NCBI GenBank assembly: GCA_012719535.1
Contig: JAAYAC010000119.1
Coordinates: forward strand, 1-34,518
DNA length: 34,518 nt
Source of the DNA: Syntrophomonadaceae bacterium
GTDB lineage: Bacteria; Bacillota; Syntrophomonadia; Syntrophomonadales; Syntrophothermaceae
Direction of reading: 5' to 3'
The translations under genes were made by a program, and so were the position numbers. Under the pieces are notes generated by a model. That model was given only the letters and a program-made list of their open reading frames with translations, searched no databases and was not told the origin of the DNA. How positions within the stretch are numbered: position 1 is the first letter of the stretch; every line of letters begins with the position of its first letter. Positions 1,068 through 34,299 of the stretch are shown in pieces.

Positions 1068-1943
1068 CTACTCCCACGCCAGCTTTTCGACGGCCATCTC
1101 CAGGTCTTCCCTGCCGGGCTTCGTGTACCTGGCCGTGGTGTTCAAATTCTCATGCCCCGCCAGCATAGCAACCCTGTCCAGACTCTCCCCCGCATCTATC
1201 AGCATCTTGCAGAAGGTGTGCCGCAGACGGTGAGGAGTCACATCAACTCCTGAAAGCCTGTAGTACTTCTTGAACATCCTCTCCGCCGCCCGCTTTGTCA
1301 TGGGCCCGTTTTTGCCCGGAAAGAGCCACTCGCCTTCAAATCCTTCGAGATACTCGCCCAAAACCCGCCTTACCGTCGCATTTAAAGGCACTTCCCGGTA
1401 CTTGCCGCCTTTCCCGCTTCTAACCGTCACCCATCCCGACCGCTCCTTTATCACAACGTCCCCAGTTTTGAGAGCAACAGCTTCCGACACCCTCAGCCCT
1501 GTGTGGAGCAGAAGAGTGATGAGAGCCCGGTCTCTTTTGCTACCCTATTTCTGCACGGCCCGCATAAAAGCACCCAGTTCCTTCTTTTCGAGCCACCGCG
1601 GGGCCGGTTTCCGCTCAGGTATCCGCTTTACGCCGTCTGTCGGGTTAGCCTCGACCAGCCCATGCTTTTGGGCCCATCCGAAGAAGCCTGAAAAAACGAT
1701 AAGGTTATGGTTTATAAACGCGGGCTTTTTACCCTTCCCCTGCAAATACCGCCGGTAATCTGCAATGTCAAGCGGGGTTACTGCGGCAATATCGGCAGAG
1801 CCGCACGTGTCTTCGAGCCACGTGAAAAACCGCCGGACGTGCCCGGTGTAGATTTCGACCGTGCCGGCAGAAAAGCCTTTTGCTAGAAGGTGCTCACGGT
1901 ACCCCACAACCGCTTCCAATCTGGATCCCATGTTGCTTCTCAA
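1068..1943 (-). pseudogene. Tyrosine recombinase (XerC/D-like integrase) with in-frame TAG
   Basis: The two halves lie in one reading frame, separated only by TAG at 1545-1547. Upstream codons give the N-terminal SAM-like core-binding domain (YREHLLAKGFSAGTVEIYT through ELGAFMRAVQK). After TAG the frame runs on as GSKRDRALITLLLHTGLRVSEA and the catalytic domain. All catalytic residues are visible: Arg in TGLRVSE, His and Arg in HRLRH, His in LAGHENL and Tyr in TARYTK. Full length would be about 290 residues, normal for Xer-type enzymes. The start is TTG at 1943 (GAGGGGG ribosome site) or ATG at 1931. A single C-to-T change in a Gln codon would explain the TAG. Probably inactive unless the stop is read through. 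It sits by the toxin-antitoxin pair and a tRNA, as expected for a mobile island. Confidence 0.8.
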
Positions 1944-2643: not shown

Positions 2644-3930
2644 CTACGCAAAGACCTCCCTGGTAACAATAGTCTGACCACGTCCGGGGCCAACCGCTAC
2701 CAGGCAGTGAGGCACCCCGGTAAGCTCGGTTATCTTTTCAATGTAACGACGGGTAGCTTCGGGCAGCTCCTCATAGGTTCTGCAGTTTTGCAGGCTGGTC
2801 TTCCAGCCATCCATTTCGATGTAGACCGGTTCACAATCCTGCAAGACCTTCAGGCTTTCAGGAAACTCTTCCAGCATAGTATTGCCGCGCTTGTATCCCA
2901 CGCAGATCTTGATACGTTCAAACTCATCCAAAACATCAATCTTGGTTATGGCCAGATCAGTAAGCCCGTTCACTCTGGCCGCATAACGAAGGATGACCGC
3001 GTCCAGCCATCCGCAACGGCGCGGCCTACCCGTAGTGGTTCCGAATTCTGCTCCCCGTTCCCGAATAAAATCTCCCGTGGCGTCGGTTAACTCTGTCGGG
3101 AACGGTCCCTCGCCTACCCGGGTAGTATACGCTTTGACTACTCCCACCACCCGGCTCACTCGGGTCGGCCCGATACCGGAACCGACACAGGCTCCCCCCG
3201 CCGTGGGGTGTGAAGAAGTTACATAAGGATAAGTCCCATGATCTATATCCAGAAGGGTCCCCTGCGCCCCCTCCAGCATAACCTTTTTACCCTGGTCTAG
3301 GGCCCGGTTAACCAGCAGGGAGGTATCGGTTACGTAGTCCCGCAACCGGTCGACGCAGGCGCGCAACCTATCCAGTATATCTCGGCAGTCGTACGGCGGC
3401 TGGTCGTAAAGACGTTCCAGGATACGATTCTTCTCCTTAACAACCGTTTCTAACCTGGCTGGGAAGTCGTCATCCAAAACATCTGTCATACGAAATCCCA
3501 CTCGTTCTATCTTATCCCCGTACGCCGGGCCAATGCCCCGCTTGGTAGTTCCCAATTGTCGGCAACCCTGTTCCTGCAGCTCATCGAATTTCTTGTGATA
3601 AGGCATCAGTAGGTGTGCCCGACTGCTGATCCGCAAGTTGGAGGTATCTATTCCTTCCCTTTCCAGGCCCTCTATCTCGTTGACTAACATCTCCAAGTCC
3701 AGAGCCACTCCGTTACCGATGACACAAACCTTGTCCGGATAAAGAATACCGGAAGGGATGAGGTGCAACATGAATTTGCGGTCCCCGACAACCACTGTGT
3801 GACCAGCGTTAGTGCCTCCCTGGTACCTGACTATGTAGTCAGCTTTTTCGGCCAGGAAGTCCGTTACTTTTCCTTTCCCTTCATCACCCCACTGGGCGCC
3901 CACTAACACGACTGCCGACAATCCTTTCAC
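2644..3930 (-). CDS. purA: Adenylosuccinate synthetase
   Basis: Catalyses GTP-dependent condensation of IMP with aspartate to adenylosuccinate, the first committed step to AMP. At 428 residues it matches the family length. Visible motifs: the P-loop-like GAQWGDEGKGK near the N-terminus with the catalytic Asp, GGTNAGHT with the catalytic His, QLGTTKRGIGPAY, the GTTTGRPRRCGWLD IMP/GTP-binding block, TKIDVLD for guanine recognition and VGPGRGQT near the C-terminus. The start may be GTG at 3930 or TTG at 3921; AAGGCAGG is better spaced from the TTG, so the first three residues are uncertain. It has its own promoter and no helicase gene beside it, unlike the common bacillus/clostridial order. Confidence 0.97.
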   Translation of the reverse strand: MKGLSAVVLVGAQWGDEGKGKVTDFLAEKADYIVRYQGGTNAGHTVVVGDRKFMLHLIPSGILYPDKVCVIGNGVALDLEMLVNEIEGLEREGIDTSNLRISSRAHLLMPYHKKFDELQEQGCRQLGTTKRGIGPAYGDKIERVGFRMTDVLDDDFPARLETVVKEKNRILERLYDQPPYDCRDILDRLRACVDRLRDYVTDTSLLVNRALDQGKKVMLEGAQGTLLDIDHGTYPYVTSSHPTAGGACVGSGIGPTRVSRVVGVVKAYTTRVGEGPFPTELTDATGDFIRERGAEFGTTTGRPRRCGWLDAVILRYAARVNGLTDLAITKIDVLDEFERIKICVGYKRGNTMLEEFPESLKVLQDCEPVYIEMDGWKTSLQNCRTYEELPEATRRYIEKITELTGVPHCLVAVGPGRGQTIVTREVFA

Positions 3931-11827: not shown

Positions 11828-11926
11828 TGGCGGAAGCGTGTGGGAATCGAACCCACCCACCGTGGGACCACCACGGCGCAGACTGGATTTGAAGTCCAGG
11901 CGACCCACCAGGACCGATCCGCTTCC
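11828..11926 (-). tRNA. selC: tRNA-Sec (anticodon TCA)
   Basis: 99 bases including encoded CCA (11830-11828). Acceptor GGAAGCG/CGCTTCC with discriminator G, anticodon stem CTGGA/TCCAG with loop CTTCAAA (anticodon TCA, decodes UGA), a long variable arm CCGTGG/CCACGG and T-arm GTGGG-TTCGATT-CCCAC. Acceptor end, anticodon arm and long variable arm resemble the E. coli selC product. The expected eighth acceptor pair looks like a G-A mismatch. It lies apart from selAB and has its own promoter and terminator. Confidence 0.96.
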
Positions 11927-12748: not shown

Positions 12749-13013
12749 TCCTAGTAAACGGTTCTGTTATCCCCCAACTTCCGTTCCTCAGGTCTCCTGA
12801 CCAAATGCACTTAGATTTGCTATGAAAATAGACGCTGACAGTTCGTTAGCAATTGGAACCCGTGTCACAACTGGTTCGGATTTTCTTCTTCGGTACTCAA
12901 CAGGTTCTGCCCCAACGGAAGAGCGAACGCACGTTGACGCCTGATGGTGCGTTGCTCAACATGGACAGGTAGAGACTGAGTGCCGGACATGGGAATCTGC
13001 TTTGGGCAGCAAC
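12749..13013. other. Noncoding gap with one copy of the GAGTGCCGG repeat
   Basis: Lies between livF and the CBS-ACT gene. One exact copy of the dispersed 9-mer is at 12978-12986 (context CTGAGTGCCGGACA), just beyond the livF stop. No gene is seen. Confidence 0.55.
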
Positions 13014-29994: not shown

Positions 29995-30499
29995 AATAGT
30001 GACATTTGTATTTCTGTCCCGAAAAAACTTCGCAAACGGGGTTGCTTGAAGAAGAAACGTTATGCAAAGACCCGTTTTCATTCCTCTAGTGGTGTCCGGC
30101 ACTCAACTACTTCCAACCAACAATAGAACGTGTATACATTCATTGTCACAGGTCTTGTTGCTTGCCTGGATAAGTAGTGGGGTTGAGTATGAGTGCCGGA
30201 TAGGGGTCATGAGAGTCGACCCTGTAAATGCAGGAATCTGGGAAGAAACAATGGGCAGCGGTACAAATGGGCTCGGCAACTAATCTCGGGCAGCCCCAGC
30301 CTAAACTGGTCGATAATTTCGTCCCTCCCATGGTTACCCGGCTTTCAAGCTTAGGCCGCGCCTGACCCACACCGCTTCCGGCTGACAGGACCCCCTTGCC
30401 TGGCCTCATTGTAGGAAGGAAGGGTTAACCCTGCCGTTTACACACTCTGATTTTCAGCGGTGACCCGGAAAGGGGCTGGCGGTCTGTGGCTCAATACGG
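29995..30499. other. Noncoding region with paired GAGTGCCGG repeats
   Basis: 505 bases between the convergent larC and the cysteine desulfurase-like gene. No gene is seen. An inverted pair of the 9-mer (30096-30104 and 30191-30199) encloses 86 bases; the flanking sequence AACTACTT at the left partly matches AAGTAGT at the right, giving a longer imperfect hairpin that looks like a small palindromic element. Confidence 0.5.
30096..30199. repeat. Inverted pair of the GAGTGCCGG repeat
   Basis: CCGGCACTCAACTACTT (30096-30112) and, in reverse, AAGTAGT...GAGTATGAGTGCCGG (30173-30199) form imperfect terminal inverted repeats of about 17 bases around a core. The size and shape resemble a miniature element or REP-like palindrome. 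Confidence 0.6.
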
Positions 30500-31775: not shown

Positions 31776-32606
31776 CTATATATCTAATATATCCAATATC
31801 CTGGCCAGATCTTCATCATCGTAGAAGAATATTTCTATGCGTCCGCCCTTTCTCTTTCTAAGCAGGTTGGCCCTGGTTCCCAGTCGCGCCTGTAGCCGTT
31901 CCTCCAATTCGACTATCTCGGGTGGTTTAACTACCTTTTTCCGGACTCCCTTCTTTTGCGAGACTTTCTCCGCCTCCCTTACGCTGAGCCCTCGTTCCAT
32001 AATTGCCCGCGCTAGCCTTAACTGCGATTCCCTGTCACCACCCGTCGCCAGGATAGCCCGTGCGTGTCCTGCCGATAGCTCTCCCTTTTCTATCATTTCA
32101 ATGACTTCCTCACACAGGTTAAGTATCCTCATAGTGTTTGCGATATGCGAACGACTCTTGCCTATTCTACGGGCCAGTTCTTCCTGGGTATACCCATATT
32201 CCTCCGTCATGTGTCGGTACGCTCGGGCTTCCTCTACCGCGGTTAGGTCCTCCCGCTGCAGGTTCTCTATCAAGGCAATTTCGGTCGCTTCTCGATCTCC
32301 CATTTCCCGGACGATAGCCGGTATCCGTTCCAGACCGGCCTTTTCCGCTGCCCGTAGCCGCCGCTCCCCGGCTATCACTTCGTAACTTTCTTCCCCTACC
32401 GGCCTCACCAGGATCGGCTGCAGCACACCGTGTTCCCGAATGGACGCTGCCAGTTCACCAAGCTTTTCTTCGGAAAAGTCCTGCCGCGGCTGCCCCGGTT
32501 TTCTTCTCACCTGAGTTACCTTTATCTCCCGCGGCTGCGTAGACACATCCTCGGATTCCAAGGAAATCAACGCGTCCAATCCTCTGCCCAAACCTCTCTT
32601 ACCCAC
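31776..32606 (-). CDS. parB: Chromosome-partitioning protein ParB (Spo0J)
   Basis: 276 residues. N-terminal CTP-binding domain: QPRQDFSEEKLGELAASIREHGVLQPILVR and VIAGERRLRAAEKAG (GERR motif); these are separate pieces, the first being QPRQDFSEEKLGELAASI. The helix-turn-helix follows (EELARRIGKSRSHIANTMRI), then a C-terminal dimerisation tail ending in FFYDDEDLARILDIL. It loads at parS and spreads as a CTP-driven clamp. It overlaps the end of parA by 8 bases. Confidence 0.96.
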   Translation of the reverse strand: MGKRGLGRGLDALISLESEDVSTQPREIKVTQVRRKPGQPRQDFSEEKLGELAASIREHGVLQPILVRPVGEESYEVIAGERRLRAAEKAGLERIPAIVREMGDREATEIALIENLQREDLTAVEEARAYRHMTEEYGYTQEELARRIGKSRSHIANTMRILNLCEEVIEMIEKGELSAGHARAILATGGDRESQLRLARAIMERGLSVREAEKVSQKKGVRKKVVKPPEIVELEERLQARLGTRANLLRKRKGGRIEIFFYDDEDLARILDILDI

Positions 32607-33360
32607 GCTCCAACACTTCCTTGGCCAGGTCCTGATATACCTCTGCTCCCCTGGACCGCGCGTCGTACATTATCACAGGCTTCCCGTAGCTCGGAGCCTC
32701 GCTAAGGCGGATGTTACGTGGTATAATCGTTCGGTACATCTGCCTCCTGAAATGCTTCTTCACCTCGTCCACCACCTGTATAGATAAATTCGTCCGACCG
32801 TCGAACATGGTCAACAATATGCCCTCCAGTCTTAAGGACGGGTTAATGCCCCTTTTTATCAACGTGATGGTATGCATAAGCTGGCTAAGCCCCTCCAGTG
32901 CATAGTACTCGCACTGAATCGGGATCAAGATGGAATCGGCGGCAGCCATGGCGTTTATGGTCAATAGGCCTAAAGAGGGCGGGCAATCGATATATATGTA
33001 ATCATATTCATTCCTAACTCCCTGCAGGGCCCTTTTCAACCGGAAGTCCCTCCGCTCGGAACCTGCTAATTCCACTTCCGCGCCCGCCAGTTGGATGGTG
33101 GCGGGAACCAGGTCAAGGTTTTTAACCTTCGTGTGGATACGGGCCTTAACCACGGGGAAATCTTCAATAATACAATTGTATATACACTTGCCCACCTTGC
33201 GCCGGTCAATTCCCAATCCACTGGTAGCATTTCCCTGCGGGTCGATATCCACCAGCAGGACCTTCTTGCCCTCCAAGGCCAGGCATGACGTCAGGTTTAC
33301 CGCGGTCGTCGTCTTGCCTACCCCTCCCTTTTGGTTGGCTATGGCTACAACCCTGCCCAC
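32599..33360 (-). CDS. parA: Chromosome-partitioning ATPase ParA (Soj)
   Basis: 253 residues of the MinD/ParA class. Deviant Walker A KGGVGKTTTAVNLTS near residue 11, ADSILIPIQCEYYALEG, IDCPPSLGLLTINAM (Walker B region), and LDLVPATIQLAGAEVEL. The short N-terminus without an extra DNA-binding domain marks the chromosomal Soj type. It also controls DnaA in B. subtilis. GTG start with AAGGAGGTGG upstream and a good promoter at 33452-33480. Confidence 0.96.
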   Translation of the reverse strand: MGRVVAIANQKGGVGKTTTAVNLTSCLALEGKKVLLVDIDPQGNATSGLGIDRRKVGKCIYNCIIEDFPVVKARIHTKVKNLDLVPATIQLAGAEVELAGSERRDFRLKRALQGVRNEYDYIYIDCPPSLGLLTINAMAAADSILIPIQCEYYALEGLSQLMHTITLIKRGINPSLRLEGILLTMFDGRTNLSIQVVDEVKKHFRRQMYRTIIPRNIRLSEAPSYGKPVIMYDARSRGAEVYQDLAKEVLERG

Positions 33361-33480: not shown

Positions 33481-33657
33481 GACCGGCAACGTTCCTCCTG
33501 CTATGAAGAACAGACGCTGGGTACTCTGACAACCCATGAATCACGCTACATACGCTAATGTTTACCGGGACTGTGTTAACCGGGGCCAGCGACTTATGAC
33601 GAGTCCCGCACTTAATTCATTGATACTCGCTACAGCAGAGCCTTAAAGAGTCCGCTT

Positions 33658-34059
33658 GAGTGCCGGGTGAGGGCTACGAAGCGGAGCGAGAAACAGGAGG
33701 TTTCGGCCGCGAGCCACTGCGTCCGGCACTCAGTCAGCCGCCTGGCCATGGCCCTTGCCTTAAGCTTTCCCGTGGTAGTTTTAGTCCGTACTGAGTGCCG
33801 AACGAATCCCGAGACGTCCGCCTAGCACCGCCCAAGAAACCGGTTATCACAGAACCAGACATGTAAGACTGCCTTGGTTGCTTGGATGAACAGCACGCTG
33901 TAATCCATTGCAGCTTGGCAGTTTAGGCCTGCTTCAGCAGGCAGCTGCTCGAAGTGAGCCAGTAAGTTGCAGTCGACCCGGCACTCGGCATAGTGTACAC
34001 AATCGCTTGAAAGTATATAAAATCAAGTACTGCCCTGTAGTGGGCTCGCTGAGTGCCGG
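33658..34059. repeat. Cluster of five GAGTGCCGG repeats in alternating orientation
   Basis: Plus at 33658-33666, minus at 33723-33731, plus variant GAGTGCCGA at 33793-33801, minus at 33978-33986 and plus at 34051-34059. Most copies have a T and often CT before the core. The core recurs at 12978, 30096 and 30191, all outside genes. The strict alternation suggests hairpin-forming pairs. Confidence 0.75.
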
Positions 34060-34299
34060 GGGAGCTATCCGCTTAACGCAATCGAACGAGTATGGGGTTT
34101 TGCTTCCCTGGCGGTGACCCCGCTAGGGGCCATACGGGTCTGCGGTGCCCATGTGTCCAAAGACCTACGTGTCCGGGTACATGCAGGCCTGGAATGCGGT
34201 TAAGGGGAGACTGGAACGCGGTTTCCGCAATGGTTACCCTGCAAAAGGCAAGTTAATTTTGTTTTTGTCGAGCCGAAAGCACCCGAACTCATACCCGCC

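Follow-up and report, generated by a model that had tools for sequence, protein, structure and literature searches.

The window analysed here – the whole 34,518-nucleotide stretch of contig JAAYAC010000119.1 of a Syntrophomonadaceae bacterium (GCA_012719535.1), whose genome we call G000 – carries towards its right end a parB gene (31776–32606, minus strand; Pfam ParB_N 1.7e-36, HTH_ParB 2e-34), a gene for a ParA-type ATPase (32599–33360, minus strand; AAA_31 4.5e-71) and, outside both genes, a cluster of copies of the 9-mer GAGTGCCGG. As a preliminary description had stated, the window holds seven exact copies of this word – at 12978, 30191, 33658 and 34051 on the plus strand and at 30096, 33723 and 33978 on the minus strand – together with a single variant, GAGTGCCGA, at 33793. 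Dinucleotide shuffles contain 0.39 exact copies on average, and none of 100 reached seven; when up to one mismatch is allowed, the excess is weak (15 against 9.2, a level reached by 3 of 100 shuffles). Two weaker variants listed earlier, near 1999 and 28550, have no partner end and are probably unrelated.

A pair scan resolves the window into five elements, none of them assigned a strand, in which two feet, CCGGCACTCA and TGAGTGCCGG, face each other across 39–92 nt. Element 1 (12890–12986, 97 bp; pair scan and RNA fold) has a left foot with two mismatches, TCGGTACTCA, and an exact right foot, whilst element 2 (30096–30199, 104 bp), exact at both feet, shares 95% identity across 140 bp with another place in G000 (L046; L numbers denote individual loci). 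The remaining three lie beside parA: element 3 (33605–33666, 62 bp), with a left foot decayed to CCCGCACTTA (two mismatches) and an interior class that recurs at L049, L062 and L009; element 4 (33723–33801, 79 bp), with the right foot TGAGTGCCGA (one mismatch) and an interior 94% identical to L011 and L028; and element 5 (33978–34059, 82 bp), with the left foot CCGGCACTCG (one mismatch) – all of these matching loci belonging to G000. The alternating directions that had been pointed out next to parA are real, and arise because the right and left ends of these three neighbouring elements follow one another. All five elements have predicted RNA folds below the mean of mononucleotide shuffles, four by about 3–6 SD and the 62-bp one by about 1.6 SD (for example, −40.8 kcal/mol against −29.2, sd 3.2, for element 1, and −38.8 against −21.0, sd 3.1, for element 5).

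The DNA around the three parA-proximal elements is itself repetitive. Outer modules, likewise without an assigned strand, lie outside element 3 (33498–33604; also at L056, L015, L062, L049 and L009 by blastn among fetched loci), between elements 3 and 4 (33667–33722; also at L049, L043, L048 and L052 by blastn and, by eye, in the relative G001) and to the right of element 5 (34060–34110; also at L028, L062 and L002 by blastn among fetched loci). By reading, the stretch 33498–33850 belongs to a composite intergenic repeat common to two genera, seen in G001 at L202, L204, L205, L209, L213, L222 and L228, in which elements occupy the same two positions and their interiors differ. The three cassettes beside parAB sit in repeat DNA and show no sign of an origin function.

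In G000 as a whole (2.49 Mb, 203 contigs), the 9-mer occurs 83 times in exact form and its reversal 13 times; counted by distinct context, the tally is 85, of which 63 copies are preceded by T and 22 by another base. A partner end lies within 130 bp of 45 of the 63 T-preceded copies, and just six of these 63 fall within an open frame of at least 250 codons, compared with 18 of the 22 others. Copies in coding frames therefore do exist and are mostly chance occurrences.

Aligned with their surroundings, many G000 copies form inverted pairs, CCGGCACTCA...TGAGTGCCGG, with several recurring sequences between them. The elements measure 59–112 bp in total, with feet of 10 bp and a non-coding, variable interior of 39–92 nt; the search key consisted of exact feet, so that decayed copies stay hidden. 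The base flanking the feet is nearly always a pyrimidine on the left and a purine on the right, and these two bases can pair in 60 of 64 cases (CG 37, TA 21, TG 2), against 26 of 57 among chance matches – elements without A or T at position 10 (57, at as many loci), which were left out of the counts as noise. Inside the feet, 90 of 95 deduplicated full-foot elements are complementary at position 11 (AT 51, GC 30, CG 8, GT 1; shuffles mean 59.7, maximum 68) and 76 of 95 at position 12, the signal fading across positions 13–22. Past the outermost pair, the flanks show no excess of complementarity (2.31 pairs, against 2.06 in mismatched controls).

Among 61 genomes of the order to which G000 belongs, the pair pattern matches 10 and its reversed control none, with 51 forward matches in G001, a relative with a complete genome. 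The 10-mer TGAGTGCCGG (control in brackets) occurs 124 (9) times in G001, 46 (2) times in G027, 240 (9) times in Desulfobotulus alkaliphilus (G061, the genome of L083) and 19 (0) times in Thermoanaerobacter wiegelii (G062, the genome of L093). The cross-genome contig scan, whose elements and loci are those among the matches listed, also placed elements in Thermoanaerobacter, Desulfobacterota, Nitrospirae and Armatimonadetes records; as to carriage by phages, two patterns had no match in viral contigs. Two repeat settings deserve mention. By reading, many G001 elements sit within degenerate repeats of about 10 nt, of the CACAGATGAA and ATCTGTGTCC types (L198, L200, L203, L207, L208, L210–L216, L219–L221, L224, L226 and L227), and D. 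alkaliphilus has a dispersed intergenic repeat of about 400 bp with two elements per copy, whose interiors are more diverged than their flanks (L139:300–720 and 3080–3500; also L083, L088, L116 and L121).

The neighbourhood of parAB had suggested binding sites for a nucleoid or origin-region protein, and the GCACTC/GAGTGC core of the feet also occurs in the CIRCE operator of HrcA, TTAGCACTC-N9-GAGTGCTAA. The latter, however, has a spacer of nine nucleotides against 39–92 here, and TGAGTGCCGG copies are distributed along the whole 2.4 Mb chromosome of G001, many of the elements lying inside RNA genes. An origin or nucleoid role was rejected because of this dispersal, and sites of this kind, CIRCE-like operators included, strike us as extremely improbable.

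The locations inside RNA genes were established with Rfam. Elements occur within 16S rRNA at L196 and L206 (two sites each), L162 (Thermoanaerobacterium saccharolyticum), L179 (a Desulfobacteraceae MAG), L193 (Thermoanaerobacter sp. A7A) and L129 (an Armatimonadetes MAG), and within 23S rRNA at L196, L206, L143 and L230; G001 is a host for both genes and G014 for 23S, and these are stem-forming inserts in rRNA genes, as rRNA intervening sequences are. Further elements lie within the class A RNase P RNA (L037 in G000, L218, L063, L064, L066, and L161 and L164, both from Desulfobacterales MAGs), the glmS ribozyme (L043 in G000, and L225), the cobalamin riboswitch (L217, L137 of Caldanaerobacter subterraneus and L165 of an Ammonifex MAG) and 6S RNA (L101, a Nitrospirae MAG). 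In the RNase P, cobalamin, glmS and 6S alignments, the inserts fall on hairpins of the Rfam structure, for the most part in loops; we take the helices concerned across these genes to include h6, h44, H25, H98 and P12.

An Rfam match encloses the element at 10 of 39 scanned named full-foot loci, against none of 20 chance-match loci, among the matches listed; the 39 come from 50 such loci (nine Desulfobotulus loci, L100 and L192 having been left out) and are a non-random sample, since some were picked for resembling RNA genes. The 51 exact short pairs of G001 include 10 within rRNA, RNase P, glmS or cobalamin RNA, and 20 further G001 loci gave no RNA-family match (26 of the 33 fetched G001 loci were scanned). 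The longer-footed subfamily CCGGCACTCAACTNAGYGCTYA, matched at 11 or more of its 13 positions by 18 of 280 oriented ends (shuffles mean 0.1, maximum 2), has its ends in 16S, 23S, RNase P and cobalamin riboswitch elements, and its carriers are Thermoanaerobacter, Thermoanaerobacterium, Caldanaerobacter, G001, G014, G000 and a Desulfobacteraceae MAG; one further such element lies at L076. By sequence resemblance, the sharing of such ends among various RNA genes and bacteria points to movement across both sites and lineages.

The occupancy of a single site can be compared in RNase P RNA, where 23 of 30 fetched relatives' loci are readable at the position concerned. Seven have short hairpins of 11–21 nt, five an exact-footed element, and two an element with foot changes that preserve pairing (CTGG...CCAG at L237, CAATC...ATTG at L252). 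The element stands exactly where the relatives carry the hairpin, between the same conserved flanks and with no hairpin remnants. Between G000 and G001, the interiors at this site are unrelated (identity 0.55, shuffled maximum 0.57), against 0.90 and 0.94 for the arms of the gene. The other nine loci (L239, L240, L242, L245–L247, L255, L257 and L264) carry, at this same hairpin, a different class of insert starting with CGARA or CGGGA (CGARAACGGAG... to ...CTCCGTTTTCG or similar).

Palindromes were also considered as targets between genes, and rejected: the flanks are no more complementary than controls, and a search of two genomes for an empty palindrome with the surroundings CACAGAC/GTCTGTG gave none. 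A prior hairpin as the target is for these reasons indicated for RNA genes only.

The presence of a constant stem in rRNA raises the alternative of an RNA-processing signal, in which an intervening sequence is cut by RNase III or another RNase, the stem being conserved for cutting while the interior drifts. Constant feet around diverging interiors fit this idea, as does the coincidence of several sites with rRNA helices known for excised intervening sequences – helices 25 and 45 are named as such sites for Salmonella in PMC2672173. The glmS ribozyme and the riboswitch nevertheless carry the element, although cutting would destroy them; the majority of copies are intergenic, in dispersed repeats; and RNase P retains compensated foot changes, all of which make a processing signal quite improbable.

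Interiors and surroundings are combined in many ways. A single interior edge occurs in up to four different surroundings in G000 and up to 11 in G001, and a single set of surroundings contains up to four different interiors in G000 and up to nine in G001, where L203:6654 is, by reading, a hybrid whose left side comes from one context and whose right side comes from a second. Most clear-cut is the 3′ site in the two 23S genes of G001, with flanks 99.8% identical (600 nt on the left, 450 nt on the right), identical feet and unrelated interiors (identity 0.56, against a shuffled mean of 0.52 and maximum of 0.60). At other sites of the same operons, interior identity is 0.99, 0.97 and 0.83 (the last at 23S H25), and a further two, larger inserts of these 23S genes look, by reading, the same or near-identical in both operons; since these other inserts are alike, the 3′ site looks like a local swap rather than general insert drift. 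Intermediate divergence in place is nonetheless seen in glmS (0.64), at 23S H25 and at Desulfobotulus sites, so fast divergence in place occurs too, which counts against a pure swap.

With their short length, non-coding interior, terminal inverted repeats and many copies, the elements have features of MITEs, and they seldom lie in reading frames: among the matches listed, an open frame of at least 150 codons spans 16 of 140 elements, against 52 of 57 chance matches. They might accordingly be ordinary inverted-repeat miniature elements, placed by a candidate transposase into any DNA target and kept where harmless – between genes and at RNA helix tips – with interior swaps produced by homologous recombination. 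Yet none of 67 deduplicated elements is bordered by a direct repeat of at least three bases, as expected of target-site duplication; in RNase P the earlier hairpin has disappeared instead of being split; and the 23S interior swap stops at the feet, where just about 10 bases are shared. We consider this explanation plausible, but unlikely.

As to the enzyme, the preliminary description had proposed looking for a transposase with matching ends, and none bearing the feet was found among 45 transposase loci of two families. For DUF772 (IS1182-type), 41 matches were listed in eight genomes, none of them in G027, G030 or the 240-copy Desulfobotulus genome G061; the 30 loci fetched lack the feet, and an IS1182-type transposase was rejected on these grounds. 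Inverted pairs 0.25–3.5 kb apart enclose no recognised transposase-like frame (frames were read at L097 and L139 only), and these pairs join separate short elements, a 301-bp copy in 23S rRNA excepted. Among the 100 of 240 Desulfobotulus positions that were listed, a search for long copies gave short pairs or singles only.

The second family, Y1, bears on the earlier suggestion of REP-like hairpins, that is, of REP/BIME repeats mobilised by a RAYT (Y1) transposase. The resemblance is a loose fit: the elements are palindromic, intergenic, arranged in inverted pairs and multi-copy, as are REPs (PMC3733652); REPs are shorter, at 20–40 bp against 59–112 bp here. Y1_Tnp has, however, no match in the complete G001 genome with its 124 copies of the 10-mer, and its three matches in G000 have no feet nearby; none of 15 Y1 loci has paired feet, a single left foot with one mismatch being present at one of them. 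RAYT was rejected on the lack of a Y1 match in G001 at Pfam sensitivity and of paired feet at the 15 loci, and we give a REP/BIME origin next to no credence.

The 301-bp copy, present in both G001 23S genes and bounded by perfect ends that extend over 14 bp or more, encodes a GIY-YIG protein (Pfam 1.7e-13), which suggests a homing-type alternative: a nuclease from rare long copies would cut at the feet, and repair would copy the cassette or swap interiors. Such a copy is nevertheless known from the two operons alone, the 29 non-self relatives among 30 fetched GIY-YIG loci lack paired feet, and the sole G000 match is a 614-residue, UvrC-sized frame in an assembly that may be incomplete. GIY-YIG as a general engine was rejected, G001's own copy alone having feet among the fetched loci, and a homing-type mechanism seems very improbable. 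A second, larger insert in the G001 23S genes (L196:4330–4790 and its equivalent in L206) has different ends, ATGGAGGTTGGAGGCC... and ...GGCCTCCAACTTCCAT, and encodes a 23S rRNA IVP protein (PF05635, 3.3e-30).

The observed basis of mobility consists of dispersed copies, reshuffled interiors and surroundings, the absence of target duplication and sites at the tips of structured-RNA helices. The reading that we prefer, and for which the chances seem to us evenly balanced, is that GAGTGCCGG forms the foot of hairpin cassettes, a non-autonomous mobile family whose members take the place of stem-loops and of one another. Each cassette would be an inverted repeat in which the 10-bp foot (CCGGCACTCA/TGAGTGCCGG) is constant and flanked by a complementary Y–R pair, the interior being variable and mostly paired. 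A trans-acting enzyme would recognise the feet and exchange an existing stem-loop for the cassette, whether that stem-loop is a hairpin of an RNA gene, a repeat hairpin or an older cassette, much as described for IS1272. In RNA genes the insertion would be tolerated because a peripheral helix is merely lengthened. A wider version, in which a cassette-exchange system spans phyla, with the feet as handles and whole loops swapped in place, so that a single mobile family would time and again rewrite the peripheral helices of rRNA, RNase P, ribozymes and riboswitches, is conceivable, but we hold it as a tentative idea and lean against it.

Of the three proposals made in the preliminary description, the ends of a miniature transposable family came closest: the words are indeed feet of a 59–112-bp inverted-repeat element, with the same interior in many contexts. 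The pairing of the ends, the cross-phylum spread and the locations in RNA genes go beyond that account.

Several known systems resemble the cassettes in part. The best mechanistic match in print appears to be IS1272 of the IS1182 family, for which PMC5678879 describes removal of a target stem-loop and its replacement exactly at the feet, without target duplication; inverted-repeat ends and the lack of a target duplication are common to both, and the cassettes may likewise replace a stem-loop. IS1272 is, however, a full insertion sequence with a transposase and 16-bp ends (PMC5678879), the cassettes being short and non-coding, with no DUF772 gene with feet found, and the analogy would be one of outcome, not of membership. 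With rRNA intervening sequences, as treated in PMC2672173 and associated with PF05635, the cassettes share stem-forming inserts at rRNA helix tips and differences between operons; unlike them, cassette feet also occur in RNase P, glmS, the cobalamin riboswitch, 6S RNA and intergenic DNA. Helix-forming inserts in the same bacterial group are likewise represented by the 5S rRNA expansion segments of Thermoanaerobacterales, in an article that suggests a common mechanism for large rRNAs; its main text lacks the string GGCACTC, and no account of a constant-footed family was seen there (PMC7812874). MITEs and the Rickettsia palindromic elements (PMC10969869) are similarly small, palindromic and dispersed, but the cassettes differ in having no target duplication, no parent insertion sequence that could be found, feet in several phyla and sites in RNA genes; the words rRNA and RNase P are absent from the main text of that article.

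Hairpins flanked by conserved boxes are familiar from integrons as well. The attC site is a hairpin with R boxes (RYYYAAC/GTTRRRY) between gene cassettes, with an integrase nearby, and the feet described here do not fit these boxes.

No description of this family was found in the open-access full-text literature, subscription journals lying outside the scope of the search. Considered singly, the rRNA inserts belong to a known kind, because intervening sequences and 5S expansion segments are known in the same groups (PMC2672173, PMC7812874); what is new relative to the literature searched is that rRNA, RNase P, ribozyme, riboswitch and intergenic copies in several phyla have one constant foot in common. 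This bears on the way in which bacterial rRNA and other structured RNAs acquire intervening sequences and helix expansions: since inserts in several RNA classes and dispersed intergenic repeats have exact feet in common, RNA helix expansion is tied to one mobile family. The constant feet provide a recognisable sequence to follow, by which 16S genes of variant length and unusual loops of RNase P or riboswitches become readable as insertions in these bacteria, and it should be possible to find a transposase or nuclease that acts on the feet.

Some minor observations may be added. At L093:880–1190 (T. wiegelii) and L174:5090–5360, an element lies in an RNA-like region conserved between two bacteria; the best RNA-family match there is a weak, partial one to TwoAYGGAY RNA (19.5 bits, cut-off 43), and the region may be an undescribed structured RNA. 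The window itself also contains a selenocysteine tRNA gene (11828–11926, minus strand) and, near a tRNA-Val gene, the N-terminal part of a phage-type integrase (Pfam Phage_int_SAM_1; 1545–1943, minus strand), possibly a remnant of integration.
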